Positions 1-27,556 of a DNA stretch of 64,000 bases are shown here, one piece after another. Position 1 is the stretch's first letter. Each line of letters opens with the position of its first letter. A program made the translations under genes and the position numbers. Source of the stretch: Agrococcus sp. SGAir0287 (GTDB lineage Bacteria > Actinomycetota > Actinomycetes > Actinomycetales > Microbacteriaceae); contig NZ_CP027942.1 in assembly GCF_005484985.1 (NCBI RefSeq), positions 1,426,001-1,490,000 of the forward strand, read 5' to 3'. Below the pieces are notes generated by a model. It saw nothing but the letters and a program-made list of their open reading frames with translations. It had not been told where the DNA came from and ran no database searches.

Positions 1-169
1 AGGCGAGATGATTCGATACGTTCGAGCGCGTCAGCTCGAGCGCGCGCGCAAGGACCGCGGGATAGTTCGGTCCTTGCAGCAAGGTCAGCAAGATGCGTGA
101 GCGGGTCGGATCCGCCATCGCCCGGCCCAGCCGATGCATGACGTCCAGTCGGTTCGCAATAGTCGGCAC
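1..169 (-). CDS. cmtR: CmtR-like ArsR-family metal repressor, N-terminal 56 residues (runs off window)
   Basis: The minus strand reads VPTIANRLDVMHRLGRAMAD, then PTRSRILLTLL and ELTRSNVSNHLA before the window edge. ALADPTR..RIL and LTRSNVSNHL are hallmarks of CmtR, the Cd(II)/Pb(II)-responsive ArsR-family winged-helix repressor known from mycobacteria. The helix-turn-helix lies around residues 35-56; the metal-binding cysteines would be in the missing C-terminal part, so metal specificity cannot be judged. The GTG start at 169 is chosen because a TATAGT hexamer ends 6 nt upstream. CmtR usually controls a metal efflux pump, which would lie outside this window. ATG at 139 is an alternative start. 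Confidence 0.82.
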   Translation of the reverse strand, partial: MPTIANRLDVMHRLGRAMADPTRSRILLTLLQGPNYPAVLARALELTRSNVSNHLA

Positions 170-181
170 ACACTGACTATA
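160..181 (-). promoter_or_regulatory. cmtR -10 box with overlapping palindrome
   Basis: On the minus strand TATAGT (181-176) sits 6 nt before the GTG start. The palindrome TAGTC-N10-GACTA (160-179) overlaps this -10 box and the start codon. The layout fits an autoregulatory ArsR-family operator; that role is inferred. Confidence 0.45.
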
Positions 182-396
182 CAGCAAACGCTGTCGTGTC
201 GACGATCATGGAGGCGCAGACGGACGGCACGCGGCGCATCCGGTTGGTGCAGCTGCTGCAGCAACTGAAGCGCTCGGGCGCCGACCAGACCCTCGCGATT
301 CCGGCATAACACACCGGCCAGGCGGCTTGCTGGAGCGTTCCGCCGCGGCCTGGAGGAGCGATACCAGTGGTGCGAGTGGAGGTACTACCCGATTTG

Positions 397-429
397 ACTG
401 GATACCGGGGATATCAACCTAGGTCGTGA
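397..429 (+). repeat. 33-bp direct repeat, copy 1 of 3
   Basis: Copy 1 begins ACTGGATACCGGGGATATCA and ends GGTCGTGA. It differs from copy 2 (1482) at one base and from copy 3 (8337) at four. All three lie in the same orientation in spacer DNA. Confidence 0.9.
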
Positions 430-471
430 AGGAGCGTCGCGAGCCATCTCCGACAGGAAAGCGGTCGAGGC

Positions 472-477
472 TACGCT
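472..477 (+). promoter_or_regulatory. -10 hexamer for the gene at 484
   Basis: TACGCT ends 6 nt before the GTG start, the spacing seen upstream of many genes in this window. It suggests a leaderless transcript. Confidence 0.45.
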
Positions 478-483
478 CGCGAC

Positions 484-1224
484 GTGCCCACAGACCCGGA
501 CCAGCAGACGGCGCACGCGCTCCTTACTGCTTTGCGCGCGTTCGCGGGCGGGACGTTCATGTCGACCTCTCCCGCGCCCGGGGAACTACGTCTGACTCCG
601 GTCTCTCAGCCCCGCCGGAACGTGCATGTCTCCTTCCTTCGAGGGGGCGCCTTCATCGGCTTTGGACCATTCACCGCGGAGAGCGACGTCGCGCTCGCAG
701 ACGTCAACGACGGTGATAGTCCGCAGGATCCGGCGCTTCACTTCGACTGGGCTCTCACCCAGCTCACTTGGCTCATCGAGTGGGGCGCGTTCCGGCGGCT
801 ACCTCTGCTCGAGCTCGTGATCCCCGACACTGCTGAGAAGGCGCGATCGTTGGCACGATCCCCGCTGGCGATCAGGTACTCCCGACCCTGGTGGGACGAT
901 CACAACCGCCGCGAGGCAATCCCGTGGTCGGGCCCAGACGCACCTGCGACCCGTGTAGAACTCGCGGCCCGTCTGACTCATGAACTCCGCAACCAATGGA
1001 ACCACTGGGAGGGACGGAGCGAAGCTGGAGTCGACCCACTCAGCGCAGCGATGACGGCGTCCGCCTTGGTCCCCGTCTCAGAGGAAGACGTCAAAGTGAT
1101 CATCGAGACGTTCTCGGCGCAGTTGACCACAGGTGATGATGGCGACCTCGATGTCGACGCGGCCGTCGACTGGCTCATTGATCGCTACCGCGATCGTCTG
1201 CCAGGTCAGAACGAGACGCTCTAG
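484..1224 (+). CDS. Hypothetical protein, 246 aa, family not recognised
   Basis: A continuous soluble-looking reading frame without signal peptide or membrane segments. The centre is tryptophan-rich (FDWALTQLTWLIEWGAF near 90-106; SRPWWDDHNRR near 131-141; RNQWNHWEG near 167-175), and the C-terminus is acidic and helical (DVDAAVDWLIDRYRD). I recognise no catalytic motif. The GTG start is supported by a correctly placed -10 hexamer. The gene stands alone between two copies of the 33-bp repeat, so it looks like a single-gene cassette. Function unknown. Confidence 0.6.
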   Translation: MPTDPDQQTAHALLTALRAFAGGTFMSTSPAPGELRLTPVSQPRRNVHVSFLRGGAFIGFGPFTAESDVALADVNDGDSPQDPALHFDWALTQLTWLIEWGAFRRLPLLELVIPDTAEKARSLARSPLAIRYSRPWWDDHNRREAIPWSGPDAPATRVELAARLTHELRNQWNHWEGRSEAGVDPLSAAMTASALVPVSEEDVKVIIETFSAQLTTGDDGDLDVDAAVDWLIDRYRDRLPGQNETL

Positions 1225-1264
1225 ACGATCAAACGGCGTGGCCGAGGACCACCGGTTTCGAGAT

Positions 1265-1281
1265 CTGCACCATTGGTGCAG
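1265..1281. promoter_or_regulatory. Perfect palindrome CTGCACCA-T-TGGTGCAG
   Basis: Two 8-bp arms flank one base. The 13-mer AGATCTGCACCAT covering the left arm recurs at 1337-1349. The form suits a dimeric DNA-binding protein, but no target gene starts immediately downstream. Confidence 0.45.
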
Positions 1282-1481
1282 TTTCTGCAAGTCATCAGAC
1301 GAAATCTGCGGCCAGGACGTAGTTCCGGATGTTGCAAGATCTGCACCATCCGAGCTGGCGCGCTGGCATCGCGCGACGCGGTTCGCTCAGAGGAAGCCCC
1401 GGTCGAAAGCCGATCTCGGCAGATCCACTCCGGCGTGCGGGGAGGCGCATCAGGAGGGCGTGAGTGCGTCATCCCTCCTCA

Positions 1482-1514
1482 ACTGGATATCGGGGATATC
1501 AACCTAGGTCGTGA
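1482..1514 (+). repeat. 33-bp direct repeat, copy 2 of 3
   Basis: This copy holds the cleanest internal palindrome, GATATC-GGG-GATATC, followed by CCTAGG and GGTCGTGA. It separates the unknown-gene cassette from the LysR-to-enolase segment. Confidence 0.9.
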
Positions 1515-1595
1515 GCCGGCACGCGTCGAGTGATTGAGAGCAGCAGCATGGCCCGAGCCGTCGTGCTCGAGATGCAGATCCGCGGTGCCACAATC

Positions 1596-2501
1596 TCACG
1601 CAAGGGCGCGTGCGAGGTTCGTGAAGGCTCGAGCTGCGGGCGATCGCTCTCCTGTCCAGATGGCGGTGAACGTGCGCAGGATCGGGTCCCCGGAGTGCGC
1701 GATGCGGGCCAGCTCTCCGGTAGCGAGGTCGGGCTCGGCGGATCTGAGGCTGAGTACCGCCGGGGCGACACCTGCGCGTGCGGTGGCCCGGATGATCGCG
1801 GTCGTCTCGAGCTCTGCTGCGGGCGCCGCGGGCGCGAGCCCCATGTGGGCGAACCAGGCTTCGATGGTGGCGCGTGTCCCGGAGCCAGGTTCGCGCATCA
1901 GCAGCGGCGTCGCTGCAATGTCTACTGGAGCGACGGGCTGCTCCTCGGTCCAAGGGTGGTCCAATGTCGCGACGAGGACCAGCTCGTCATCGAGGAGCGG
2001 CAGCGTGGCGAGGTCGGCGGGTGCGGTGGACCCCTCGATGAAGCCGACGTCGACGCGGCCATGCCGGACCAGCTCGATCACGGTGGTCGAGTTGGCGGCC
2101 GTGAGACGCACCGAGACGTCTGGGAAGGAACGGCGCAGCTCGGACAGCCACTTTGGCATCAGCAGCTCGGCGATCGTGTGAGACGCGGCGACGGCGAGCT
2201 CCCCGCGCGGCGCTCGGAGCGCCGCGACGCACTCGTCCAGGGCCCGCGCGGCGTGCAGGACAGGCTCCGCGAGCTCGACGAGTCGACGGCCCGCATCGGT
2301 GGTCGTCGATCCTGTCGACGAGCGCACGACGAGTGGCACTCCGACGAGGCGTTCCGCGACGCGGATGCGGGCGGACACCGCCTGCTGCGTGACGCCGAGC
2401 TCGCGTGCCGCTGCGGAGAGCGATCGCGTGCTGCCGACGGCGCGGAGCACCTCGAGGGTGTCGAGATCGAGAACATGGTCGGTGAGCCTGCGCGTTGCCA
2501 C
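1596..2501 (-). CDS. LysR-family transcriptional regulator
   Basis: A 301-aa protein with an N-terminal winged helix-turn-helix around residues 14-60 (TLEVLRAVGSTRSLSAAA, then LGVTQQAVSARI) and a periplasmic-binding-protein-like effector domain to about residue 295. Length is normal for LysR regulators. The GTG start gives the standard short N-terminus before the HTH. It is divergent from the TDT transporter, the usual arrangement for a LysR regulator and its target, so it probably controls that gene. The inducer cannot be read from sequence. Confidence 0.85.
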   Translation of the reverse strand: MATRRLTDHVLDLDTLEVLRAVGSTRSLSAAARELGVTQQAVSARIRVAERLVGVPLVVRSSTGSTTTDAGRRLVELAEPVLHAARALDECVAALRAPRGELAVAASHTIAELLMPKWLSELRRSFPDVSVRLTAANSTTVIELVRHGRVDVGFIEGSTAPADLATLPLLDDELVLVATLDHPWTEEQPVAPVDIAATPLLMREPGSGTRATIEAWFAHMGLAPAAPAAELETTAIIRATARAGVAPAVLSLRSAEPDLATGELARIAHSGDPILRTFTAIWTGERSPAARAFTNLARALA

Positions 2502-2515
2502 AGTCAATGATTGTG
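2499..2515. promoter_or_regulatory. Candidate LysR operator
   Basis: CACAGTCA-A-TGATTGTG is a near-palindrome (7 of 8 arm positions match) overlapping the LysR start codon and 57 bp before the divergent transporter start. The position suits autoregulation plus control of the transporter. Confidence 0.4.
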
Positions 2516-2571
2516 ACGCATCCAGCAGGTCCGCCGTAGCGGGCGCCCCTCGGCGGGAGGAGGGTGGGCTG

Positions 2572-3750
2572 GTGATCTCGACTGAGCATTCGAAGCTGCC
2601 GCAGGAGCCCGCCGGGCAGACGCTGCGCGAGCCGGCGCGTGCGCAGCGGACGCTGCTGCGCGCACTCGAGCATCCCGGCGAGATCGTCTCGAACCTCACG
2701 CCGAACTGGTTCGCATCGATCATGGGCACGGGCATCGTGGCGGTCGCGGCGGCGTCCCTGCCGGTGCAGGTACCTGGCCTGCGGACCGCGGCGACCGTGG
2801 TGTGGGCGCTCAGCGCGCTGCTGCTCGTGGCCCTGACGATCGCGACCGTGCTGCACTGGGTGCGCTATCGGTCGACGGCGGCACGGCATCACCTGCACCC
2901 GGTGATCTCGCACTTCTACGGCGCGCCGGCGATGGCGTTCCTCACCGTCGGTGCCGGCACGCTGCTGCTCGGCTCGGACTGGATCGGCATGGAGGCTGCG
3001 ATCGCGATCGACTTGGTGCTCTGGACCGTCGGGACGGTCGCGGGACTGGCCACGGCCGTGCTCGTGCCGTTCCTCGCCTTCACCCGCCACGACTACGCAC
3101 CGGAGTCAGCGTTCGGGGGATGGTTGATGCCGATCGTGCCGCCGATGGTGTCAGCCTCGACGGGCGCGCTGCTGCTGCCGCACACGCCGGCGGGGCAGCT
3201 GCGCGAGACGCTGCTCTGGGCCTGCTACGGCTTCTTCGGGCTGAGCCTCATCGCTTCGCTCGTCGTCATCACGCTCATCTGGAACCGACTCGTGCAGCAC
3301 AAGGTCGGACCCGCCGGCATGGTCCCGACGCTGTGGATCGTGCTCGGACCCGTCGGCCAGTCGATCACGGCCGTCAACCTGCTCGCCACGAACGCCTCCA
3401 GCGTCGTCGACGACCACACGGTGCACGCACTGACCATCGTGGCGCTCGTCTACGGATTCGCGATGCTCGGCTTCGCGCTCCTCTGGGCAACCATCGCCGC
3501 CGCCATCACGATCCGCACCGCCCGCGAGCATCTACCGTTCAGCCTCACCTGGTGGTCGTTCACGTTCCCCGTCGGCACCTGCGTCACCGGTCTCAACGGG
3601 CTCGCGCTGCACTCCGGACTCGTGCTCGTGCAGGTCCTCGCAGTCGCCGCCTACGTCGCGCTCGTCGCAGCCTGGCTGATCGTCGCCGTGCGCACGTTCC
3701 ACGGATCCGTCATCCACGGCACCCTCCTGGCACCACCGAGGACCGCATGA
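2572..3750 (+). CDS. TDT/SLAC1-family transporter (tellurite-resistance/dicarboxylate type)
   Basis: A 392-aa membrane protein with about ten hydrophobic segments. The opening LTPNWFASIMGTGIVAVAA (around residues 44-62) is typical of the TDT family, which includes TehA, Mae1 malate permease and SLAC1 anion channels and some sulfite exporters. The GTG start is preceded by a strong GGAGGAGGG ribosome site. It is divergent from a LysR regulator and overlaps the next gene by ATGA. The substrate (dicarboxylate, sulfite or another anion) cannot be decided from sequence. Confidence 0.85.
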   Translation: MISTEHSKLPQEPAGQTLREPARAQRTLLRALEHPGEIVSNLTPNWFASIMGTGIVAVAAASLPVQVPGLRTAATVVWALSALLLVALTIATVLHWVRYRSTAARHHLHPVISHFYGAPAMAFLTVGAGTLLLGSDWIGMEAAIAIDLVLWTVGTVAGLATAVLVPFLAFTRHDYAPESAFGGWLMPIVPPMVSASTGALLLPHTPAGQLRETLLWACYGFFGLSLIASLVVITLIWNRLVQHKVGPAGMVPTLWIVLGPVGQSITAVNLLATNASSVVDDHTVHALTIVALVYGFAMLGFALLWATIAAAITIRTAREHLPFSLTWWSFTFPVGTCVTGLNGLALHSGLVLVQVLAVAAYVALVAAWLIVAVRTFHGSVIHGTLLAPPRTA

Positions 3751-4331
3751 ACGACGAGACCGACTTCGGACCGATCGAAGCCCTCGACGCGCTCGCCGCG
3801 CGATGGCGCACCGACTCGACGGGCGCGCCCCGATTCGTGCCCGGCTTCGACCCGCGCTCCGGAGGTGCTCGCAGCCGCGTCCTCGTGCTCATGGAGTCGC
3901 CGGGACCGGCGACCATCGCCGCGGGCGCAGCGGCGATCTGCAGCGAGGACAACACCGGCCCGACCGCGGCTGCGCTGCGAGACGCCCGCCACGCCGTGGG
4001 CCTCCCGCGCTCATGGATGCTGCGGTGGAACCTCATCCCGTGGCAGGTGCACGGTCGCGCGACCGTTGCAGAGCGAGAAGCCGGGCGCGCAGCACTCGCC
4101 GAACTCCTCGACACGTTGCCATACCTGCGCGTTATCGTGACCTTCGGCACCATCGCGTTGGACGGCGTCATGCGCCACTTCACCCTCGCCGACGACCCCA
4201 CCGTCGTCCCCGTGCTCGCGGCCCCGCATCCGTCGCCCGCCAACGGGCGCCACCGCCACGAGCAGCGCACCCGCGCAGAGCATGCGCTGGCGCTCGCATG
4301 CGAGATCGCGAGGCGAGGCGATGGTGACTGA
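3747..4331 (+). CDS. Uracil-DNA glycosylase superfamily protein
   Basis: A 194-aa protein with the fold signatures of the UDG superfamily: [11 protein letters not shown] at residues 46-55 (the water-activating loop region), NLIPW at 95-99, [11 protein letters not shown] around 131-141, and HPSP at 161-164 (DNA-intercalation loop). Length is close to the family norm. The ATG overlaps the stop of the TDT transporter (ATGA), so the two are translationally coupled although no functional link is obvious. Assignment to a specific UDG subfamily is uncertain. Confidence 0.72.
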
Positions 4332-4504
4332 CACTCGAGTGGGCCACGAGCTGCCCGCCGCCGCGCCACAACTTCACGTCGATTCCCCGCATCCGCAGCG
4401 AGTCGCCGGCGTTCGACCTGCACCACCCCGAGGTCGGCGTCGGACCCTTCAAAGACGCTCCCGAGCGGCCCGTGCTCGACATCCCCGAAGGCAAGGTCAA
4501 GTAG
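4328..4504 (+). pseudogene. ctaD: Stranded C-terminal end of cytochrome c oxidase subunit I (ctaD)
   Basis: After a stop at 4325, the frame reads [20 protein letters not shown], then [16 protein letters not shown] and [20 protein letters not shown] before TAG. LEW.TS.PPP..NF...PRIRSE.P..DLHHPE is the cytoplasmic tail of actinobacterial CtaD. Only about 58 residues survive of a protein of about 570; no helices or haem ligands remain and there is no start signal. This is a recombination scar next to the fluoride genes, not a gene. Confidence 0.8.
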
Positions 4505-4600
4505 CGGCTCCCTTATCTCCTCTCAACGCCTGTCGGCAACTGGGATGCTTGGTGAGCCATTGCGCAGTTCGGCCGCGAGTGCCAGGCTGGAGACGGCTTC

Positions 4601-4692
4601 GGTCACGGTGGTGGGGCCCACCGTCACCAACCTCGGGCGTCGCGTCCGACAACGGTCCCTATCTGATGCATTCGTGTGCGCGCAGATAGGGA
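4601..4692 (+). promoter_or_regulatory. Structured leader of the crcB operon with hairpin over the ribosome site
   Basis: Two inverted repeats precede crcB. The first is GGTCACGGTGG (4601-4611) with CCACCGTCACC (4618-4628), one mismatch. The second is a perfect 10-bp stem TCCCTATCTG (4656-4665) with CAGATAGGGA (4683-4692), loop 17 nt. The right arm of the second covers the AGGGAG ribosome site, so the start can be occluded. The fluoride-riboswitch consensus was not found, so the sensing mechanism is unknown. Confidence 0.4.
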
Positions 4693-4696
4693 GACC

Positions 4697-5149
4697 ATGA
4701 GCACCGACCCCATCGTCCAGAGTCCGCTCGACTCGGACCAGGAGCCCGCTCCGCGGCATGGGCGACCGTCGTTGCGACATGCGTCGCTCGTCTTCGCAGG
4801 TGGCACGATCGGCGCCGGTGCTCGCGCGGGCGTGACGCTATGGACGCCCGAGGCGGCGGCGCTGACGACCGTCGTCGCGATCAACGTCGCAGGAGCCTTC
4901 GCCCTCGGCGTCCTGCTCGAGCGACTGAGCATGCGAGGTCCCGACGTCGGCCGACCCCGAGACGTGCGCATGCTCCTCGGCACAGGCGTGCTGGGAGGAT
5001 TCACCACTTACAGCGCCATCGCGGTCGACGCCGCGCAGCTCGCGGCAGTCGGCCCCCTGTCGCTGATCCTGTTCGCGCTGGGCCAGACCGTGCTTGGCGT
5101 CGCAGCAGCATGGCTCGGCATCCGTCTCGCAGGACGCAGGGCAGCATGA
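4697..5149 (+). CDS. crcB: Fluoride ion exporter CrcB/Fluc, first subunit
   Basis: A 150-aa protein with four hydrophobic segments and the CrcB signature GVLGGFTTYSA at residues 97-107, which carries the conserved phenylalanine-box region; NVAGAF near 63-68 matches the conserved Asn of the pore. A 28-residue hydrophilic N-terminal extension is longer than usual. Fluc channels are dual-topology dimers exporting F-; in Gram-positive bacteria two crcB genes often sit in tandem and form heterodimers. Here the second copy overlaps by ATGA. The upstream hairpin over the ribosome site suggests translational control. Confidence 0.93.
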   Translation: MSTDPIVQSPLDSDQEPAPRHGRPSLRHASLVFAGGTIGAGARAGVTLWTPEAAALTTVVAINVAGAFALGVLLERLSMRGPDVGRPRDVRMLLGTGVLGGFTTYSAIAVDAAQLAAVGPLSLILFALGQTVLGVAAAWLGIRLAGRRAA

Positions 5150-5538
5150 CCGCACTGCTGGTGGCACTCACCGCTTTCGCCGGCGGTGCAGGCGCGGCAT
5201 CGCGCTACCTCGTCGATGCCGCCATCACCGCCCGCACTCGCCTACGCTTCCCGATCGCGACGGCCGTCATCAACCTCACCGGATCGGCCGCTCTCGGCGT
5301 AGTCACCGGCCTCGCAGGCGCGAACGCCGTCGGCGCAGAGGCCACCACGATCATCGGCGTCGGCTTCCTCGGCGGATACACGACCTTCAGCACGACGACC
5401 GTCGAGATCGTCCGTCTCCTGCTCGACCGCAAGCCGCTGTCCGCGCTCGCGAACAGCGTCGGCCTGCTCGTGGGAGGCATCGCCCTCGCCGCTGCCGGCC
5501 TCGCGCTCGGACTCGGACTCGCTCTCGGCAGCGGCTGA
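5146..5538 (+). CDS. crcB: Fluoride ion exporter CrcB/Fluc, second subunit
   Basis: A 130-aa protein of canonical CrcB length with four membrane segments, an N-terminal GAGAASRYLVD (14-24), INLTGS (42-47) with the pore asparagine, and GFLGGYTTFST at 73-83. It is translated from an ATG overlapping the stop of the first crcB, as expected for a heterodimeric Fluc pair. Two tandem hairpins follow directly, so this is the end of the transcript. The enolase remnant downstream belongs to a gene family often found with fluoride resistance. Confidence 0.94.
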   Translation: MTALLVALTAFAGGAGAASRYLVDAAITARTRLRFPIATAVINLTGSAALGVVTGLAGANAVGAEATTIIGVGFLGGYTTFSTTTVEIVRLLLDRKPLSALANSVGLLVGGIALAAAGLALGLGLALGSG

Positions 5539-5544
5539 CAGGAT

Positions 5545-5610
5545 CCCGCCGCGACCTGCGAAGCGCGGCGGGCCAGAGCGGGCGGCCGCCTTGTCCACGG
5601 CCGCCCGCTC
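5545..5610 (+). terminator. Two tandem hairpins after crcB
   Basis: CCCGCCGCG (5545-5553) pairs with CGCGGCGGG (5564-5572). GAGCGGGCGGCCG (5576-5588) pairs with CGGCCGCCCGCTC (5598-5610). Both stems are perfect; no long T run follows, common in high-GC actinobacteria. Confidence 0.7.
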
Positions 5611-5712
5611 GCTCATGATTGGACCGGCCGCGTCGCCTGGGTGCGCGCTGCGCCGTCCATGACTGCTGAACCGAATGCGTGCGGCCAGCGTGTCCTCGAC
5701 ATGGAGGATCCC

Positions 5713-6249
5713 GTGACATCGAACCGAGACGACGCGATCGATGCTGCTGCTGGCGTCGATGCTGCGCTCGTCCGACTCCGGGACCTCCATGCTGGACCGC
5801 TCTGGCGCTACGTGGTCTCGCTGACGGGGTCCACGGCTGACGCCGACGACGTCGTCCAGGAGACGCTCATCCGCGCGTGGAGGCACGACAGCCTCCTGAA
5901 GGATCCGCCCGAGGCTGTGCGTGGATGGCTCTTCACCGTCGCGCGCAACCAGGTCGTCGATCGAGCTCGCCGGGCGGGCAGGCGGCCCGAGCGTCCGCTG
6001 TCGGATCGAGACGACGTGCTCCTCTCGGCCCAAGACGACGCAGTGCTCGACGCGATGCTCTTGCGCGATGCGATCGCGTCGTTGTCCGAACAGCACCGCG
6101 AGGTCATCGTGCGCGCGTATTACGGAGGACACTCGGTCGCGCAACTGAGCGAGGTGCTCGGTGTCGCAGAAGGCACGGTGAAGTCACGACTGCATTACGG
6201 CATGCGCGCGCTACGGCTCGCCTTCCAGGAAAGGGGGATCACCCGATGA
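5713..6249 (+). CDS. ECF-family RNA polymerase sigma factor
   Basis: A 178-aa sigma-70-family protein. Region 2 lies around residues 25-65 (LWRYVVSLTGSTADADDVVQ, then ETLIRAWRH) and region 4 around 115-170 (LSEQHREVIVRAYYGGHSVA, then LGVAEGTVKSRLHYGMRAL). The GTG at 5713 is preferred because GGAGG sits 5 nt upstream; an in-frame ATG at 5701 would swallow that ribosome site. It overlaps the anti-sigma gene by ATGA. The pairing with an RskA-type anti-sigma resembles the SigK/SigL groups of actinobacteria. Confidence 0.9.
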   Translation: MTSNRDDAIDAAAGVDAALVRLRDLHAGPLWRYVVSLTGSTADADDVVQETLIRAWRHDSLLKDPPEAVRGWLFTVARNQVVDRARRAGRRPERPLSDRDDVLLSAQDDAVLDAMLLRDAIASLSEQHREVIVRAYYGGHSVAQLSEVLGVAEGTVKSRLHYGMRALRLAFQERGITR

Positions 6250-6917
6250 ACGACCATGACCGGTTCGCCGACTGGGATGCGGCCTATGTGCTCGGTGTGC
6301 TGTCATCGGGGGAGCGGCACGAGTTCGAAGCGCACCTCGCGACGTGCGAGATCTGCACGCGCGCCGTCTCAGAGCTCGCCGCGATGCCAGGGTTGCTCTC
6401 GCGTGCAGCGTACGCGGAGACGACCGCGGATCCGCCCGGCGACCTCCTGACGCACGCATCGCTGCGGACGGCGCGGCGCCGACGACGTCGTCGTCCACGG
6501 CGCGCGGTCGCCGCAGTCGCAGCTGCGTTGGTCGCGACGACCGTGATCGTCGTCGGCGTCTGGGTCGGTGCGCGCGATGCTCCGACAGACCTCGCCGTCG
6601 CGATGGCGCCCGTGACCGACACCAGCATGACCGCAGACGTGTCGTTGCAGCGAGTCCCGTGGGGAACACGCATCGCCCTCGAGTGCGACTACCCGACGGG
6701 GCAATCGTGGTCGGGGCCTGACGGGCTGTGGACCTACGAGCTCGTGGTCGTCGACCTCGACGGTCATGCCGCGAGCGTCTCTTCCTGGTCCGCCGTGCCG
6801 GGAGCCAGCATCACGCTGCCTGCCGGGACAGCGCTCGACCTCGCCGACATCGCCACGATCATCATCCGCAGCGCGTCGGGCTCCGACGTCTTGGTGGCGA
6901 ATGTCGACAGCCCGTGA
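6246..6917 (+). CDS. Membrane anti-sigma factor with zinc-binding (ZAS) motif
   Basis: A 223-aa protein. The N-terminal cytoplasmic part has the ZAS motif H-x3-C-x2-C (H30, C34, C37; HLATCEIC) that binds ECF sigma factors. An arginine-rich stretch (77-86) precedes one membrane helix (about 87-108), and the extracytoplasmic C-terminus (VPWGTRIALECDYP...) resembles the RskA anti-sigma-K domain. It is translationally coupled to the sigma factor. The signal it senses is unknown; the following secreted lipoprotein may be part of that regulon. Confidence 0.88.
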   Translation: MNDHDRFADWDAAYVLGVLSSGERHEFEAHLATCEICTRAVSELAAMPGLLSRAAYAETTADPPGDLLTHASLRTARRRRRRRPRRAVAAVAAALVATTVIVVGVWVGARDAPTDLAVAMAPVTDTSMTADVSLQRVPWGTRIALECDYPTGQSWSGPDGLWTYELVVVDLDGHAASVSSWSAVPGASITLPAGTALDLADIATIIIRSASGSDVLVANVDSP

Positions 6918-6996
6918 GATCACGGTGAACCGATCGTCGCCCGCCGTCGTGTCCTCCGCAGATCGCACATCGCGACCATGACCGAAGGGAACCACC

Positions 6997-7476
6997 ATGC
7001 AGCACAGGACCGGAATCGCCGTCGCCGCCGCGGCCCTCGCCGCGCTGGCGCTCGCCGCATGCTCGAGCACCGCCAGCGACGACGCACCGGCGGACCCCGC
7101 ATCGACCGGCACTGACGCACCGACGGACGCGTTCACGCTCGAGACGACCGAGACCGATCTCGGCACGATCGTCGTGGATGGCGACGGGGCCGTCGTGTAC
7201 CAGTTCGACTCCGACGAGCAGGGCTCGGGGTCCTCGACCTGCGAGGGCAACTGCGCCGACATGTGGCCTGCCGTGCCGGGCAGCGACGACGTGCAGCTCG
7301 ACGGCGTCACGGGGGAGGTCGGCACGATCACCGGCGTGGACGGAGAGCCGCAGCTCACGCTCGACGGCTGGCCGCTCTACTACTTCGCGCAGGACGCCGA
7401 GCCCGGCGACACCCTCGGCCAGGGCGTCATGGACGTGTGGTGGGTCGTGGACCCCACGGGCACGCCGATCCGCTGA
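6997..7476 (+). CDS. Secreted lipoprotein of the COG4315 repeat family
   Basis: A 159-aa protein with an N-terminal signal peptide and lipobox LALAAC (lipid-attached cysteine at residue 22), then a low-complexity Ser/Thr/Asp/Ala linker to about residue 45. The body carries the COG4315 pattern: [20 protein letters not shown], then [10 protein letters not shown], then [21 protein letters not shown] good ribosome site (GAAGGGA) precedes the ATG. Members are often encoded next to ECF sigma/anti-sigma pairs, as here. Biochemical role is not established. Confidence 0.85.
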
Positions 7477-7485
7477 AGCACGGCA

Positions 7486-7513
7486 GGGTCGTCGTCCTAG
7501 CCGACGACGACCC
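7486..7513 (+). terminator. Hairpin terminator after the lipoprotein gene
   Basis: GGGTCGTCGTC (7486-7496) pairs perfectly with GACGACGACCC (7503-7513) over a 6-nt loop, 9 nt after the stop codon. Confidence 0.75.
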
Positions 7514-7581
7514 GGCCGCCTCTATGGACGCAGAAGGCGGTGGGACGTCGCCGATTGCCTTCGTCGAACGGAGTGGTCGAC

Positions 7582-8226
7582 TCACACGCTCTCCTGTGCC
7601 GGTCGGCCCAGCCCGTAGGACAGATCGGGATCGTCGGCTGCGATCTCGGTGAGCCGGTTGTACTTGGCGACCCGCTCGCCGCGGGCGGGGGGCACCCGCC
7701 TTGATCTGGTCGACGCCCGTACCGACCGCGACGTCGGCGATGAACGTGTCGGTTGTCTCGCCGGACCGGTGGGACACCATGCATGCCATGCCGTGGGACC
7801 GCGCGGTGGCGATCGCGTCGAGGGTCTAGCTCACGATGCCGACCTGGTTCGGCTTGATCAGTGCAGCATCGCTCCAGCCGCGGTCCGCGCCCTCGGCGAT
7901 CCTGGCAGAGTCCGTGACGTAGAGGTCATCTCCGACGAGCTGCACCCGGCCCCAGAATCGGTCAGCCATGAGCGACCACCCCACGTGGTCATCCTCGTCG
8001 AACCCATCCTCGATGCTCCGGATGGGGTAGACGTCGAGGAGTGCGCCGTAGCGATCGACCAATGCCGCGCGGTCGAGGTCGTCGCCAGCGATCCGGTAGT
8101 GGCCGTCGCCATCGCCAAATCCGTTCGCGGCGGGATCGAGCGCGATGGCCACGTCATCGGGTGCGGCGCGACGACCGGTTGCCGTGATCGCGGCGAGGAT
8201 GAGGTCCAGAGCCTCCTCAGGGGTAT
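7582..8226 (-). pseudogene. eno: Enolase C-terminal half, 5'-truncated, nonsense-mutated and frameshifted
   Basis: The minus strand encodes the second half of enolase: DTPEEALDLILAAI, DVAIALDPAANGF, YPIRSIEDGFDEDDHVGW, RVQLVGDDLYVTD, ALIKPNQVGIVS, then TAG at 7828-7826, then [37 protein letters not shown] and DQIKAGAP. The frame shifts in a six-G run (7687-7692) and resumes as [16 protein letters not shown] to the stop at 7582. The N-terminal half (over 200 residues) is missing; the 5' junction is near 8226, where sequence from an XRE-type gene begins. Enolase is a fluoride target and extra copies occur with crcB, so it was probably cargo of the fluoride locus. Confidence 0.88.
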
Positions 8227-8332
8227 CGATATGCTGATCGACCTCCCGGGCTCGGCTTCCGCCATCGGAATCGCTGCGCGATTCAACCTCAGCGTCGCAC
8301 GTTCGACGGGCTCTGGGGAGAGGGCAGCGCCG
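8227..8332 (-). repeat. Duplicated 5' end of an XRE-type gene, copy A
   Basis: About 100 bp closely match 10,754-10,855: upstream DNA plus the first 13 codons (here ATG at 8265, MAEAEPGRSISIS). The match stops after codon 13, where enolase sequence takes over. Confidence 0.85.
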
Positions 8333-8336
8333 CCGG

Positions 8337-8369
8337 ACTGGATATCGGGGATACCAACTTCGGTCGTGA
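8337..8369 (+). repeat. 33-bp direct repeat, copy 3 of 3
   Basis: Reads ACTGGATATCGGGGATACCA and ends CGGTCGTGA; the most diverged copy. It abuts copy A of the XRE-type repeat and lies just beyond the 3' end of the CD-NTase gene. Confidence 0.88.
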
Positions 8370-8416
8370 GCCTAGAACTGCAGCTCCACCTCGCGCAGGT
8401 GCTGACCGCGGCGCGG

Positions 8417-9701
8417 CTAGCTGCCTGAAATCGGTACCTCGATTGAGGAGCGCGCGACGACCACACCGGTCTTGATGATGTAGCACTCGACGACGTGCTC
8501 GCCTCTGAACACGGTGTACTCCGTACGATCACGCCCCTCGTTGGCTTCGACGAGCGTGCCGCGGATGCAGTCTCGTCGTTCCGCCTCGGTGCCGCGGTTG
8601 AGGACCTTCCATCGAACGTCATACGGCTCCACCACCGTGCATTCCACGATGGTGAACTGCAGCTTCTTCCGCGGGCGCAGAGGTAGGGCCTTCCGGAGCA
8701 GCGTCCGCAGGAACTGGGGCCGAAATCCGTCCTGCGTGACGGTGCAGTCGATCTCGAGCGACGCGCGGATGTCGACGGGGAACCGATCCTCGACGAACTC
8801 CTCGGTGTGGCGAAACTTCGAGAACGAAGCTTCCTCGCCAGCGTGCTGGATCTTCGGTACGGAGCGGCCAAAGACAGCTCGCCACTTGGCGTACTCGTTC
8901 CTCTGGTCACGAGCTCCGATAGCGATGCTGGCAAGATCGCGCGCGTCGGCTGCCGCCGGCTGGAAGCGCTTCTTGACCTTGACGCGCTGGCCGCTGCCGA
9001 TTGCCGCGTAAAACTCGTGGTCGGGTTCCTGCGCGAGGAAGTCGAAGAACGCCTCGCACATGAGGCCGAATCCGTCGGAGCCCTCCGCGGCCCAGTCTGG
9101 CTCCGCCTTGAAGAATCGTGACGCGAGGGTGTCGATCAGCAGCCCGCCCATGACGACACCGTGCTTGTTCTTCCAGGAACGGGTCATTCGGCACAGCCTG
9201 CGAAGGTTGCCGCGCGCTGTCTCGTTCTCCTCCCGAATGGCTCTGATCTCGGCGCGGGGCTTCGTCACCTTCCAGGCGTCGGAGTAGGTGTCCGGGTACG
9301 AGTAGGAGTCGTCGTCATTCGCGAACACGGGCTGCACGTCGAAGGAGAACGAGGTGAACTCGACGACGACGACGAGTCGGTCGACGCGGACGGTCGTCGC
9401 GGGGTAGCGGTTCTGGATCGCTCGTTTTGTCCGTTGCAGGATGCGCGCCGCCCCGCCGTCCTTGTCGTAGTCGCTTCGGAGCGACGCGGGCGCGATGAAA
9501 AGCAGGTCAAGATCGGACACGCCCCGGATGGCGGTCCAACGGCCGTAGGAGCCGACCATCAATTTGTGATCGGTCGAACTCTCGATGCCGCGGAAGTCCT
9601 TGTTCAGCGCCTTGGTGATCTCGTCGCACCGCAATCGTGGCTCCGTTGTCGACGCCCAGGTTCGTCAAGAAGCCGTCAAAGATCTCAGACGTCTGCGTCA
9701 T
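8417..9701 (-). CDS. CBASS-type CD-NTase (SMODS domain plus AGS-C sensor), frameshifted near the start
   Basis: A nucleotidyltransferase of the SMODS/CD-NTase class. The core has GSYGRWTAIRGVSDLDLLF (catalytic D-x-D) and a third Asp in FTSFSFDVQPVF. The C-terminus is an AGS-C sensor domain (PYDVRWKVLNRGTEAERRD, TVFRGEHVVECYIIKTG). Family members begin with a helix before the ..EITKALN motif; here that helix (MTQTSEIFDGFLTNLGVDNG, from ATG 9701) is in another frame and joins the body (RCDEITKALN) only by a +1 shift near 9635. Either the gene is broken, or translation starts at TTG 9634 without the helix, or one base is misread. It overlaps the SLATT gene by 17 nt. Such enzymes make cyclic oligonucleotides that trigger the effector during phage infection. 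Confidence 0.85.
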
Positions 9702-10278
9702 CACGGCCCTGTCGAAGCTGCTCTGGCAGAAGGCGGTCGAGTTCGCCTGGATCGAAGCTGATGTCTCCCTGATTCTGCAAGCCTCGCTGAGCCTTGCGAT
9801 ACGCGCGAGGGGAGGTGCGCGGCGCGTTGCCGTACGCCTCCTTGAGCTCGGCCTGAAGATCGTCTCTCCGCTCGCGAGCCGCAGGAAGATCGGCGCCGCT
9901 CGACTGCAGAGTCACGATAAGCGAGAGATAGGACTCCCGCACGCTCCACAGGCGCGCGGCACAATCCCGGTGCCTTTGCGTTGCCTCGCCGTACTCGAAG
10001 GTATCCCCGGCGAGGGTTGCAGCTGATAGGAGAAGCGCGACGAACGAGATCACCAGCGAGGAGATCTGAGCCTCGAGGAAAACGCCAGCCAAGGCCGCCA
10101 AGAAAGTCCCGGAGCTTGCGGCAGCGAGGCTCACCTTGCACCACTGAAAGCGTCGGTGCCGCGCGTCGTAGATGTCGGCTTGCTTCTCATGAGCCTTGTG
10201 CGAGTACACGACCCGGCCGTAGAGCTCGCGGGCCTGGGCCAGCAGGAAGTCCCGTTCGCCGGGAGTCGAAGTCCCCAT
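9685..10278 (-). CDS. SLATT-domain two-helix membrane protein, probable CBASS effector
   Basis: A 197-aa protein with a charged N-terminal helix region, two adjacent membrane segments (about 49-69 and 71-91) and a long helical cytoplasmic tail (EYGEATQRHRDCAARLWSVR...). This is the SLATT architecture (SMODS- and SLOG-associating two-TM effector), predicted to form membrane pores. It lies directly upstream of and overlaps the CD-NTase, the usual two-gene layout. The ATG at 10278 (MGTSTPGERDF) is preferred, with GAGGAG upstream. Likely outcome of activation is membrane disruption and abortive infection; not demonstrated for this family member. Confidence 0.82.
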   Translation of the reverse strand: MGTSTPGERDFLLAQARELYGRVVYSHKAHEKQADIYDARHRRFQWCKVSLAAASSGTFLAALAGVFLEAQISSLVISFVALLLSAATLAGDTFEYGEATQRHRDCAARLWSVRESYLSLIVTLQSSGADLPAARERRDDLQAELKEAYGNAPRTSPRAYRKAQRGLQNQGDISFDPGELDRLLPEQLRQGRDDADV

Positions 10279-10518
10279 CGTCGTGCGCGCTCCTCGAGTC
10301 AAGATTGGTCGCCGGAGCCATGTCTCCAATTTGAGACTGTAGGTGTCACGACCGACAGCGAGTGCAGTCGCGCCACTCCCGCAAGCCGATCCCTCAGTGG
10401 GACACCTCGCAGCGCCCGCCCGGGTCTAGATGACCCGCGTGGGGACTGGGGGAGCGAAGGCCCGAAAGACCCGCCCGGTGAAGCGCCCGGTGGAGGGACC
10501 ACGAACGGGACGGCGGAC

Positions 10519-10788
10519 TCAGCCTTCGCCCGGTGGGCCGAGGGTGATCAACTCTTCGACTCCGACGCCGAAGATGTCGCACAGCGCAGCGAGCACACGC
10601 AGCGAGACTCGATCTGGATCCCGTGTGAGGCGATAGACCTGAGAACGCGACAGCACGACGCCTCGGGCCGCGAGCGGCTTGACCAGGTCACTCGTGCGGC
10701 GGTAGCCGGCACGCGCCATGAGCTCGGGCAACCGCCACGACGCCACGAGCGACATGCTGATGGACCTCCCGGGCTTGTCTTCCGCCAC
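10519..10788 (-). CDS. XRE-type (Cro/C1) helix-turn-helix protein
   Basis: An 89-aa DNA-binding protein: ASWRLPELMARAGYRRTSDL, then LAARGVVLSRSQVYRLTRDP and LRVLAALCDIFGVGVEELI, the five-helix Cro/C1 layout with the recognition helix around SRSQVYRL. The start is GTG. Its promoter region and first 13 codons are duplicated at 8227-8332. It lies between the defence pair and the dif-like site. Small HTH proteins of this kind often accompany tyrosine-recombinase elements, but no recombinase is visible here. A role in element maintenance is only a guess. Confidence 0.75.
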   Translation of the reverse strand: MAEDKPGRSISMSLVASWRLPELMARAGYRRTSDLVKPLAARGVVLSRSQVYRLTRDPDRVSLRVLAALCDIFGVGVEELITLGPPGEG

Positions 10789-10855
10789 CGGAATCGCTGC
10801 GCGATCCAGCCTCAGCGTCGCACGTTCAACGAGCCCTGGGGAGGGGTCGGCGCTG
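10754..10855 (-). repeat. 5' end of the XRE-type gene, copy B (intact gene)
   Basis: About 100 bp shared with 8227-8332, roughly 85% identical by eye. It covers upstream DNA and codons 1-13 of the intact gene. Confidence 0.85.
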
Positions 10856-10859
10856 ACAA

Positions 10860-10887
10860 ACGCGACATAATGTGCATTATCGGCGTT
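10860..10887 (-). other. dif-like XerCD recombination site
   Basis: The minus strand reads AACGCCGATAA (XerC-type arm), TGCACA (6-bp spacer), TTATGTCGCGT (XerD-type arm): 11-6-11 with inner half-sites ATAA and TTAT, the dif layout. Compared with E. coli dif (GGTGCGCATAA / TGTATA / TTATGTTAAAT) the arms match at 6 and 7 of 11 positions, including the conserved TTATGT. It lies exactly where accessory DNA gives way to core genes. It could be the chromosomal dif or a dif-like integration scar. Confidence 0.6.
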
Positions 10888-11450: not shown

Positions 11451-11485
11451 CGCTCCCCCGAACCTGTGAGAATCCTGCATGCCAC

Positions 11486-13849
11486 TCACGCCCCCACGTA
11501 CTCGGCGAGGTGCTGCCCCGTGAGCGTCGAGCGTGCGGCGACGAGGTCGGCGGGCGTGCCCTCGAAGACGATGCGACCGCCATCGTGGCCGGCGCCGGGG
11601 CCGAGGTCGACGATCCAGTCGGCGTGGGCCATGACGGCCTGGTGGTGCTCGATGACGATGACGGTCTTGCCCGAGTCGACGAGTCGGTCGAGCAGCCCCA
11701 GCAGGTGCTGCACGTCGGCGAGGTGCAGGCCCGTCGTCGGCTCGTCGAGCACGTACACGCCGCCCTCCTCGGCCATCTGCACCGCGAGCTTGAGGCGCTG
11801 ACGCTCGCCGCCCGAGAGCGTGTTGAGCGGCTGCCCGAGCTTGATGTAGCCGAGACCCACGTCGGCGAGGCGCTCGACGATCGAGAGCGCGGCGGGCACC
11901 TTCGACGCGGATGCGGCGAAGTACTCGCGCGCCTCGGCGACCGACAGCCCCAGCACCTCGCTGATGTCGAGGTCGCCGAGCGTGTACTCCAGCACCGACG
12001 ACATGAAGCGCTTGCCGCCGCAGTCCTCGCACGTCGTCGACACCGTCGACATCGGGCCGAGGTCGGTGAAGATGAGCCCGGCGCCCTTGCACGTCGGGCA
12101 CGCGCCCTCCGAGTTCGCGCTGAACAGCGCGGGCTTCACGCCGTTGGCCTTCGCGAACGCCTTGCGCACCGGCTCGAGGAGGCCCGTGTAGGTCGCGGGA
12201 TTCGAGCGACGCGAGCCGCGGATGGACGTCTGGTCGATCGTCACCACGCCGTCGCGCGTGCCGATCGAGCCGTGCACGAGCGACGACTTGCCCGAGCCGG
12301 CGACGCCGGTGACCACCGTGAGCACGCCCAGCGGCACGTCGACGTCGACGCCCTCGAGGTTGTTCGCCGTCGCCCCGCGCACCTCGATGGCCCCCGAGCC
12401 CGAGCGCACCGCATCCTTGAGCGCCGCGCGATCGTCGAGGTGCGTGCCCGTGAGGGTGCCCGAGGCGCGCAGCCCCTCGACGGTGCCCTCGAACTGGATC
12501 GTGCCGCCGTCCGAGCCCGCGCGCGGGCCGAGGTCGACGACGTGGTCGGCGATCGCGATCGTCTCGGGCTTGTGCTCGACGACGAGCACCGTGTTGCCCT
12601 TGTCGCGCAGCTGCAGCAGCAGGTCGTTCATGCGCTGGATGTCGTGGGGGTGCAGGCCGATCGTCGGCTCGTCGAAGACGTAGGTCACGTCGGTGAGCGC
12701 CGAGCCGAGGTGGCGGATGAGCTTCGTGCGCTGCGCCTCTCCCCCGCTGAGCGTGCCCGACGAGCGGTCGAGCGACAGGTAGCCGAGGCCGATGGCCACG
12801 AACGAGTCGAGGGTCTCGGCGAGCGCCTCCACGAGCGGCGCGACGGCCGGCGCGTCGATGCCTCGCAGCCACGGCAGGATGTCCGAGATCTGCATCCGGC
12901 ACACGTCGGCGATGGAGCGGCCGGCGACGAGCGACGAGCGTGCTGGCGCCGACAGCCGCGTGCCGTCGCAGTCGGGGCACGGCTGGAAGGTCACGGCGCG
13001 GTCGACGAAGGCGCGGATGTGCGGCTGCATCGCGTCGGCATCCTTCGACAGCATCGACTTCTGGATCTTCGGCACGAGGCCCTCGTACGTCATGGTCATC
13101 GACTCGACCTTGACCTTCGTGGGCTCCTTGTACAGGAAGTCCTGCCGCTGCTGCTCGGTGAGGTCGCGGATGGGCACGTCGCCGGGCACGAACCCGGAGG
13201 CGACGAAGATCTTCACGAGCCAGCCGTCGGCGGTGTAGCCGGGCACGCGGATCGCGCCTTCGAGCAGCGTCTTCGAGTCGTCGACGAGCTCGCTCAGGTC
13301 GATGTCGTCGATGCGGCCGAGCCCCTGGCATCGCGGGCACATGCCGCCGAGCATCGTCTCGGACCGCTCGATCGACTCCGAGCCGTCGCCGCGCTCGATC
13401 GTCATCGTGCCCGACACCTGCACGCTCGGCACGTTGAACGAGAACGCGTTCGGCGAGCCGATCGCCGGCTCCCCCATCCGCGAGAAGAGGATGCGCAGCA
13501 TCGCGTGCACGTCGGTCGCGGTGCCGACGGTGGAGCGGGGGTTCGCGCCGAGCCGCTCCTGGTCGACGATGATGGCGGTCGTGAGGCCCTCGAGCCGGTC
13601 GACCTCGGGCCGCGCGAGCGAGGGCATGAAGCCCTGCACGAACGCGGGATACGTCTCGTCGATCATGCGCTTCGACTCGGCCGCGATCGTGCCGAAGACG
13701 AGCGACGACTTGCCGGATCCGGAGACGCCGGTGAACACCGTGAGGCGCCGCTTCGGGATGTCGAGCGAGACGTCCTTGAGGTTGTTCTCGCAGGCGCCGA
13801 GCACGCGGATGCGGTCGTGGCGGTCGGCGGGATGCGTCGCGTCGCTCAT
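11486..13849 (-). CDS. UvrA-like twin-ABC ATPase (short UvrA2/DrrC-type)
   Basis: A 787-aa protein with two UvrA-type ABC modules: Walker A GVSGSGKSS at 41-49 and GVAGSGKSS near residue 520, signature LSGGEAQR and LSGGERQR, and Walker B ..VFDEPT and ..VLDEPT. Zinc-finger-like CxxC pairs are present (CPRCQG, CPDCDG, CPTCKG with CEDCGG). It is about 150-160 residues shorter than true UvrA, matching the shorter class of UvrA-like proteins linked to drug resistance or damage tolerance. GGAG precedes the ATG. Not the housekeeping uvrA; substrate unknown. Confidence 0.85.
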   Translation of the reverse strand: MSDATHPADRHDRIRVLGACENNLKDVSLDIPKRRLTVFTGVSGSGKSSLVFGTIAAESKRMIDETYPAFVQGFMPSLARPEVDRLEGLTTAIIVDQERLGANPRSTVGTATDVHAMLRILFSRMGEPAIGSPNAFSFNVPSVQVSGTMTIERGDGSESIERSETMLGGMCPRCQGLGRIDDIDLSELVDDSKTLLEGAIRVPGYTADGWLVKIFVASGFVPGDVPIRDLTEQQRQDFLYKEPTKVKVESMTMTYEGLVPKIQKSMLSKDADAMQPHIRAFVDRAVTFQPCPDCDGTRLSAPARSSLVAGRSIADVCRMQISDILPWLRGIDAPAVAPLVEALAETLDSFVAIGLGYLSLDRSSGTLSGGEAQRTKLIRHLGSALTDVTYVFDEPTIGLHPHDIQRMNDLLLQLRDKGNTVLVVEHKPETIAIADHVVDLGPRAGSDGGTIQFEGTVEGLRASGTLTGTHLDDRAALKDAVRSGSGAIEVRGATANNLEGVDVDVPLGVLTVVTGVAGSGKSSLVHGSIGTRDGVVTIDQTSIRGSRRSNPATYTGLLEPVRKAFAKANGVKPALFSANSEGACPTCKGAGLIFTDLGPMSTVSTTCEDCGGKRFMSSVLEYTLGDLDISEVLGLSVAEAREYFAASASKVPAALSIVERLADVGLGYIKLGQPLNTLSGGERQRLKLAVQMAEEGGVYVLDEPTTGLHLADVQHLLGLLDRLVDSGKTVIVIEHHQAVMAHADWIVDLGPGAGHDGGRIVFEGTPADLVAARSTLTGQHLAEYVGA

Positions 13850-13946
13850 GGTGCTCCGGGGCTCTGGATGGCCGTGCGCCACCGGCGGCGTGGCACGCGA
13901 TCCAGCCTAGGACGCTCCCCGGCGGCACGCACCCGTGCGCGGACGC

Positions 13947-26287: not shown

Positions 26288-27556
26288 ATGGACCTCATCG
26301 GCCCAGTCCTGCTGATCATCGTCGCGATCGTCGTCATCGTCGTCGTCGTGATCATCGCCAGGTCGATCCGCATCATCAAGCAGGGATTCACGGGCATCGT
26401 GGAGCGCCTCGGGCGCTTCCACCGCGTGCTCGGTCCCGGCCTCAACATCCTCGTGCCGGTCATCGACCGGCTCGCGTACAGCGTCGACATGCGCGAGCAG
26501 GTGCGCACGTTCCCGCCGCTGTCGGTCATCACCGAGGACAACCTGAACGTCGCGATGGACACCGTCGTGTACTTCCAGGTCAACGACCCGCGCTCGGCGA
26601 CGTACGAGATCGCCGACTACCTCTCGGCCGTCGAGCAGCTCACGGCGACGACGCTGCGCAACGTCGTCGGCTCGATGAACCTCGAGGAGGCGCTCACGAG
26701 CCGCGACGTCATCAACTCGCAGCTGCGCGCGGTGCTCGACCAGGCGACGGGCAAGTGGGGCATCAAGGTGACCCGCGTCGAGCTGAAGTCGATCGACCCG
26801 CCGCAGTCGATCCTCGAGCCGATGGAGAAGCAGATGCGCGCCGAGCGCGAGCGTCGCGCCTCCATCCTCACGGCCGAGGGCCTCAAGCAGTCGCAGATCC
26901 TCGAGGCCGAGGGTCAGCGCCAGTCGACGATCCTCCGCGCCGAGGGTGAGGCCAAGTCGCAGGTGCTCCGCGCCAAGGGTGACGCCGAGGCGCAGGTCGT
27001 CCTCGCGAAGGGCGAGTCGGAGGCCATCGAGCGCGTGTTCGCGGCCATCCACGCCGGCGACGCCGACAACAAGCTGCTGGCGTACCAGTACCTGCAGACG
27101 CTGCCGAAGCTCGCCGAGGGCGACGCGAACAAGCTGTGGATCATCCCGAGCGAGCTCACGGATGCGCTGCAGGAGATCGGCAAGGGCTTCTTCGAGGGCA
27201 AGGCCGTGAATCCGGCGGCGAAGGTGCGCTCGTTCGACACGGACGACCAAGGTCCGTCGATCCTCGACGAGACCTTCGAGCCCGACTCCGTGAGCGACGT
27301 CGAGGTGCCCTCGATCGCCGACACGCTGAAGGACTCGGGCATCGACCCGCGCGGCGCCGGCGAGACGAGCACGATCTCGTCGTCGACGTCGATCGCCGAC
27401 GAGACGCCGGGCGTGGGCCTGGAGGATGCGCTCGACTCCGTGCGCGAGGCGGAGCAGGAGGTGCCCGGCCAGGCGCCGCAGCCGCCCGCCCCGCAGCCGC
27501 CGTCGACGCCGCAGCCGCCCACCCCGCCGCAGCCGCCGGTCCCGCCGCAGCAGTGA
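26288..27556 (+). CDS. SPFH/Band 7 (stomatin-like) membrane protein
   Basis: A 422-aa protein with an N-terminal membrane anchor (LLIIVAIVVIVVVVIIARSI), the SPFH domain at about 27-190 (GFTGIVERLGRFHRVLGPGL, REQVRTFPPLSVITEDNL, GSMNLEEALTSRD), and a coiled-coil of AEGxx repeats (ILTAEGLKQSQILEAEGQRQ) at about 190-245. The last ~60 residues are a proline/glutamine tail (PQPPAPQPPSTPQPPTPPQP) that is unusual for the family. Downstream of NfeD; overlaps the GDPD gene by GTGA. Likely forms oligomeric membrane scaffolds. Confidence 0.9.
   Translation: MDLIGPVLLIIVAIVVIVVVVIIARSIRIIKQGFTGIVERLGRFHRVLGPGLNILVPVIDRLAYSVDMREQVRTFPPLSVITEDNLNVAMDTVVYFQVNDPRSATYEIADYLSAVEQLTATTLRNVVGSMNLEEALTSRDVINSQLRAVLDQATGKWGIKVTRVELKSIDPPQSILEPMEKQMRAERERRASILTAEGLKQSQILEAEGQRQSTILRAEGEAKSQVLRAKGDAEAQVVLAKGESEAIERVFAAIHAGDADNKLLAYQYLQTLPKLAEGDANKLWIIPSELTDALQEIGKGFFEGKAVNPAAKVRSFDTDDQGPSILDETFEPDSVSDVEVPSIADTLKDSGIDPRGAGETSTISSSTSIADETPGVGLEDALDSVREAEQEVPGQAPQPPAPQPPSTPQPPTPPQPPVPPQQ

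Follow-up and report, generated by a model that had tools for sequence, protein, structure and literature searches.

The 28-mer at positions 10860 to 10887 of the window (the whole analysed stretch of 64,000 nucleotides) is, with a probability that we put at about 0.94, the normal chromosomal dif of the Agrococcus genome; the adjoining accessory block would then consist of insertions beside a resident dif, towards which FtsK would be guided by the heptamer GGGGGAG. The dif itself is ordinary and canonical, and the new part is the candidate KOPS.

The dif site and the Xer machinery

The site, ACGCGACATAA-TGTGCA-TTATCGGCGTT, has the 11-6-11 organization of an Xer site, just as the initial annotation had described it. 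With up to three mismatches allowed, the 19-mer core of dif matched the window once and none of 100 shuffles. The genome search proposed in that annotation, carried out with the 23-mer core at the same threshold, returned one match in the single contig of 3,084,767 bp and none with the reversed control. The match to dnaA is found at bases 307-792 and the site at genome position 1,436,860, which is 46.6% of the way round from dnaA and thus in the terminus, opposite the origin. Reverse-complemented to AACGCCGATAATGCACATTATGTCGCGT, the site is identical at 25 of 28 positions to the Frankia alni dif given in the available text of Kono et al. (2011; PMC3025954), which is also 28 bp long, present in a single copy and located opposite the origin; the Agrococcus site differs in the outer bases of both arms. 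A shift point of GC skew at dif was a criterion in older dif predictions. Here, the skew is close to zero on either side of the site and does not change at it, so that the skew check suggested at the outset gave no signal and GC skew was dropped as a terminus marker.

Only two proteins of the genome match Phage_integrase, and both are of the Xer type. One is XerD according to TIGR02225, above the cut-off; the best model for the other is XerC, with 294 bits and thus below the cut-off of 335. The FtsK_gamma domain was found in one protein. XerC and XerD would bind the two arms of dif. At division, FtsK would pump the DNA, guided on both chromosome arms by the dif-pointing GGGGGAG as the putative KOPS, and its encounter with XerCD at dif would trigger the crossover which resolves a chromosome dimer to monomers. 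We infer both XerCD recombination at 10860-10887 and the reading of GGGGGAG by FtsK-gamma.

The comparison with related genera that had been recommended revealed the dif core (up to three mismatches) in 162 of the 199 family genomes and in 97 of the 118 class genomes, with 37 and 21 genomes, respectively, having no core match. Since the reversed control also matched, in at least 24 of the 199 family and 16 of the 118 class genomes as read off the tables, some of the weak three-mismatch matches are background. All seven f21/g106 genomes of the class survey (7-10 Mb) had no dif core match, which would be expected if these are Streptomyces with linear chromosomes. Across the 29 family loci having full flanks, there is almost no variation in the inner arms, and conservation drops at the edges of the site; for one of these aligned loci, L019, the partner site described below is displayed instead of dif.

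Gene order around dif

Within 20 kb, all nine relatives compared show synteny with the window to the right of dif; the 20 kb to the left is non-syntenic in nine relatives, apart from scattered homologues such as that of the HTH gene in the congener G049. Synteny on the left returns at about −50 kb in the coordinates of the window genome, corresponding to −32 kb in the congener G119 and −33.5 kb in G049, and on the right at about +3 kb (own coordinates). The site had been placed exactly between an accessory mosaic and core genes. This holds roughly for the border, but the mosaic is far larger than the proposed 1-10.86 kb, as synteny with the two congeners comes back on the left only at about −50 kb; on the right, it does so at about +3 kb.

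Two landmarks of dif are found throughout the family, a Glycos_trans_3 gene, which we read as trpD, on the left and a Band_7/SPFH gene on the right. Gene order was sampled in those 80 of the 199 family genomes in which a listed dif and trpD lie on one contig. The trpD gene is located at most 70 kb to the left of dif in 70 of these 80 genomes, the SPFH gene to the right in 66 of the 68 for which its place is known, and both genes bracket dif in 58 of the 68 genomes having all three on one contig. The median gaps in these 58 genomes are 8.7 kb on the left and 4.8 kb on the right, with the left one longer in 46; when the four Agrococcus genomes are set aside, the values are 7.9 and 4.6 kb and the left gap is longer in 42 of 54. 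No other of the 70 genomes has a gap between trpD and dif as large as the 61.8 kb of the genome studied (congeners, 50.9, 49.5 and 28.5 kb). The trpD/SPFH pattern is broken in 12 of the 80 genomes, including both genomes seen of the genus g83, where the SPFH gene lies left of dif. The retention of its trpD and SPFH neighbours indicates that dif stayed in place and that foreign DNA accumulated beside it, in Agrococcus mostly on the trpD side.

Accessory DNA beside dif

The genes immediately to the left of dif include a CD-NTase gene next to an effector gene, a predicted CBASS operon, which is adjoined by the gene of an HTH regulator (Table 1). Together with the latter, the operon occupies 8417-10788 of the window and stops approximately 70 bp short of dif. 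In G049, a homologue of the HTH gene lies some 1.4 kb to the left of dif. Further genes to the left of dif in the window encode an ECF sigma factor, CrcB, SLAC1 and LysR proteins. Ten proteins encoded to the left of the window were scanned and comprise three P-type ATPases, a cadmium-resistance transporter, an SBF-family transporter, an LMWPc protein, two oxidoreductases, a cation efflux protein and an IS4/5 transposase fragment. Metal-transport and oxidoreductase genes and the transposase fragment are found in the L033-L034 stretch, which reaches as far as 50 kb to the left of dif, and the mosaic continues well beyond the left edge of the window. The accessory genes on this side would be insertions accumulated between trpD and the resident dif. 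The GC content is 0.675 in 1-10860 and 0.733 right of dif. On the right, the UvrA-like gene (+0.6 to 3 kb) also adjoins dif in G080, which belongs to another genus; beside dif in three congeners it was not found.

Table 1 Features around dif in window coordinates. XerD-type and XerC-type are presumed arm names, assigned by analogy with E. coli dif
Feature	Position	Strand	Remark
GGGGGAG, further copies on the left	6308-6314, 7311-7317	+	
Enolase C-domain fragment	7826-8152	-	isolated, 108 aa; model positions 100-214 of 296
CD-NTase gene, SMODS + AGS_C	8417-9634	-	CBASS cyclase
SLATT_4 two-transmembrane effector gene	9685-10329	-	CBASS
GGGGGAG nearest dif on the left	10448-10454	+	points at dif
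HTH_26 regulator gene	10519-10788	-	just left of dif, adjoins CBASS genes
Chromosomal dif (probable)	10860-10887	-	single copy, F. alni match, conservation, shuffles
XerD-type arm of dif	10860-10870	+	
Centre of dif	10871-10876	+	
XerC-type arm of dif	10877-10887	+	
GGGGGAG nearest dif on the right	11453-11459	-	points at dif; followed by 13 further copies up to 60770, all -
UvrA-like ABC ATPase gene	11486-13882	-	798 aa; first gene to the right; scores under the curated UvrA cut-off
Band_7/SPFH gene	26288-27556	+	landmark on the right of dif across the family

A polar heptamer around dif

The motif was found de novo by counting octamers according to their direction relative to dif in the window genome and G119 stretches. 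The most extreme octamer, CGGGGGAG, points towards dif 113 times and away from it never. Its core GGGGGAG gave 233 copies towards and 3 away in three Agrococcus genomes, and the other six heptamers made up of six G and one A gave ratios from 5:2 to 83:37. The known motifs GGGNAGGG and GAGAAGGG were rejected as guides, being weakly skewed or too rare here. All 17 copies of GGGGGAG in the window point at dif, 3 on the + strand to the left and 14 on the − strand to the right, and the orientation switches only once, between 10454 and 11453, an interval of about 1 kb which contains dif. For CGGGGGAGC in the whole genome (100 of the 114 places being listed), all 43 forward copies lie to the left of dif, as do two of the 71 reverse copies. 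This corresponds to 112:2 towards dif, with the switch between 1,432,315 and 1,437,452 among the places listed. When the arms are divided into halves, 30 copies near dif compare with 13 near the origin on the left, and 46 with 23 on the right.

Within 20 kb of dif, the ratio of GGGGGAG copies pointing towards and away from it is 180:2 in nine relatives, which include G119 and G049 of the earlier Agrococcus set (the left 20 kb of G119 contains no copy), and 168:3 in nine genomes of nine other families, picked from the 97 class matches mostly for their long contigs. GGGGGAG was the top heptamer in six of the latter nine; other heptamers outrank it in G236 and G292, and G201 has only four copies. 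The ratio of 3:1 in 40 kb had made G201 (family f6) appear as an exception, which was dropped since the ratio is 47:1 over 400 kb, with GGGGGAG ranking first. In G289, with a GC content of about 0.50, the ratio is 19:0. The best orientation split contains dif in all 18 other genomes, the intervals being one-sided or wide in G119, G201 and G228. The recognition segment of FtsK-gamma, a stretch of 24 residues, is identical in 18 of 18 genomes from 12 genera.

In the non-syntenic stretches left of dif in three Agrococcus genomes, the ratios are 15:0, 8:0 and 16:0, compared with totals of about 6 towards and 4 away expected for these stretches from an order-2 Markov model. Such a bias would agree with selection on how acquired DNA is oriented, an idea put forward in the accessible part of PMC5993296.

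Single-orientation runs of the motif were also observed in contig 1 (0-2.2 Mb) of G216, a genome of 9.2 Mb with no dif match: the − strand carries 84 of the first 97 CGGGGGAGC places, yet the totals are 173:173. How such runs are to be read depends on where the contig starts.

Xer-like sites and elements elsewhere

A weight-matrix scan from −63 to +16 kb detected no second, hybrid, half or arms-only dif site scoring above shuffled DNA; the second copy whose presence left of the window had been considered was thus not detected in the 63 kb left of dif, and the pair of bounding dif-like sites used as a criterion for an IMEX was not found in the scanned interval. A XerD-side half-site at −47 kb in the congener G049, with a score of 13.3 vs 13.1 for the best shuffle, was taken as chance.

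In the genus g17, a second, inverted Xer-like site is located exactly 48 bp from dif in all three genomes sampled (L017, L018 and L019). It lies on the XerC-type side, with a 20-bp spacer, and has the centres GAGACA, GAAGCA and GAGCCC. No such inverted partner was found 48 bp from dif at the other 55 of the 58 loci examined, and the fixed spacing together with the diverged spacer suggests a function. Dif-like sites with the changed centres GGTACA and CGTCCA occur in the plasmid-sized contigs L091 (9998-10025 and 5735-5762), L090 and L115 and are perhaps plasmid Xer sites. Used as a query, the L091 site hit 23 plasmid records, 22 of them from actinobacterial genera, mostly as short weak matches to the 28-mer. 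In G165 (L092, around 10001), a second dif-like site with the centre CGTCCA lies about 1.5 Mb from the listed dif in the same 3.84-Mb contig.

Candidate elements associated with dif were seen in other members of the class. In G312 (family f35; L114, 10001-15130), dif and a second site flank 5.1 kb with a GC content of 0.492 (whole locus, 0.561). The second site shares the centre and the XerC-type arm with dif, and its XerD-type arm is degenerate. The stretch carries a CAP12/Pycsar-type TIR gene (PADLOC PDC-S35), and of the two sites only the left one lies within the GGGGGAG switch (8235/11459). It looks like a candidate IMEX; an empty site was not found for it, and neither flank is shared with G263, which belongs to the same family. 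The inovirus-like IMG/VR contigs L145 (4708-4728) and L146 (108-128) contain the exact actinobacterial dif core. They share 971 identical bases around it and differ in the genes beyond; both match phrog_20922, and L146 also the Zot-like phrog_197. This suggests that they are filamentous phages using dif. No relatives of their phage proteins were found at an E value of 1e-3 in 41 other dif-bearing viral contigs.

Discussion

The initial annotation had offered two readings of the site, a chromosomal dif beside which accessory DNA had accumulated or a dif-like copy which had been carried in. The position, the single copy, the match within the phylum, the conserved gene neighbours and a polar motif that reverses at the site all speak for the former. 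The latter finds no support here: there is no second or half site in the region scanned, and the place in the gene order is kept in most comparable relatives. An accessory block that is an IMEX integrated by XerCD, with 10860-10887 as one of its attachment ends, resembles the known elements of this kind (GGI and CTX-type phages, according to the available text of PMC5357621) in that foreign DNA adjoins dif and the block contains no Phage_integrase gene, and such elements are likely to exist elsewhere in the class, as the G312 stretch and the inovirus-like contigs carrying dif indicate. We consider it very unlikely for Agrococcus: unlike those elements, the block is not delimited by a second or degenerate dif-like site within the scanned −63 to +16 kb, dif is single in the genome, and it has trpD and SPFH neighbours that are kept in most relatives compared. 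That the 28-mer is nothing but a chance palindrome at the border of accessory and core DNA would agree with a GC skew which leaves this place unmarked, but it is hardly credible for a site which no shuffle reproduced, which is conserved across the class and at which the polar motif switches.

KOPS are reported in the accessible parts of PMC5357621 and PMC13342612 to have a leading-strand bias of more than 90% near dif, a rising density and a reversal at dif. GGGGGAG points at dif on both arms (over 90%), becomes denser toward the terminus and reverses at dif, and since these traits match, we infer that it is the actinomycete KOPS. According to the same two sources, the FtsK/KOPS system of E. 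coli and its relatives (GGGNAGGG) is alike in having a G-rich leading-strand motif that becomes denser toward dif and reverses there, and FtsK-gamma is present in both cases; the Agrococcus candidate is GGGGGAG, however, and the E. coli motif is only weakly skewed here. AIMS, described by Hendrickson et al. (2018; PMC5993296, available text), are likewise strand-biased oligomers strongest near the terminus, where acquired DNA carries the permitted orientation, but our case concerns one heptamer with near-absolute polarity which is tied to dif at about 1 kb. A Chi-like or other leading-strand motif, not an FtsK guide, beside a real dif is a less likely explanation: polarity and terminus-ward density do not by themselves identify the protein that reads the motif, AIMS, of unassigned function, behave alike, and G216 has single-orientation runs with no dif match. 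Against it, the strictness of 233:3 is like that of KOPS near dif, the switch interval at dif is about 1 kb and all 18 genomes read from the class in which the motif occurs have the same FtsK-gamma recognition segment. On balance, GGGGGAG is probably the KOPS of the class Actinomycetes, a prediction in which it is read by one invariant FtsK-gamma segment, narrows the position of dif to about 1-3 kb in most tested genomes, also where GC skew fails, and polices the orientation of foreign DNA beside the Agrococcus dif.

FtsK is under study in Corynebacterium and Mycobacterium. An actinobacterial KOPS sequence is not stated in the literature searched, to which subscription papers mostly did not belong, so an earlier description is possible; in particular, none is given in the accessible parts of PMC3025954, PMC5993296, PMC13342612, PMC11898615, PMC13277299, PMC11537254, PMC5357621 and PMC10331603. 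A shared seven-letter candidate makes FtsK guidance testable across the class, and GGGGGAG would provide a terminus marker for high-GC genomes with no useful skew. It also hints at a readable rule for the orientation in which acquired DNA can persist near the terminus.
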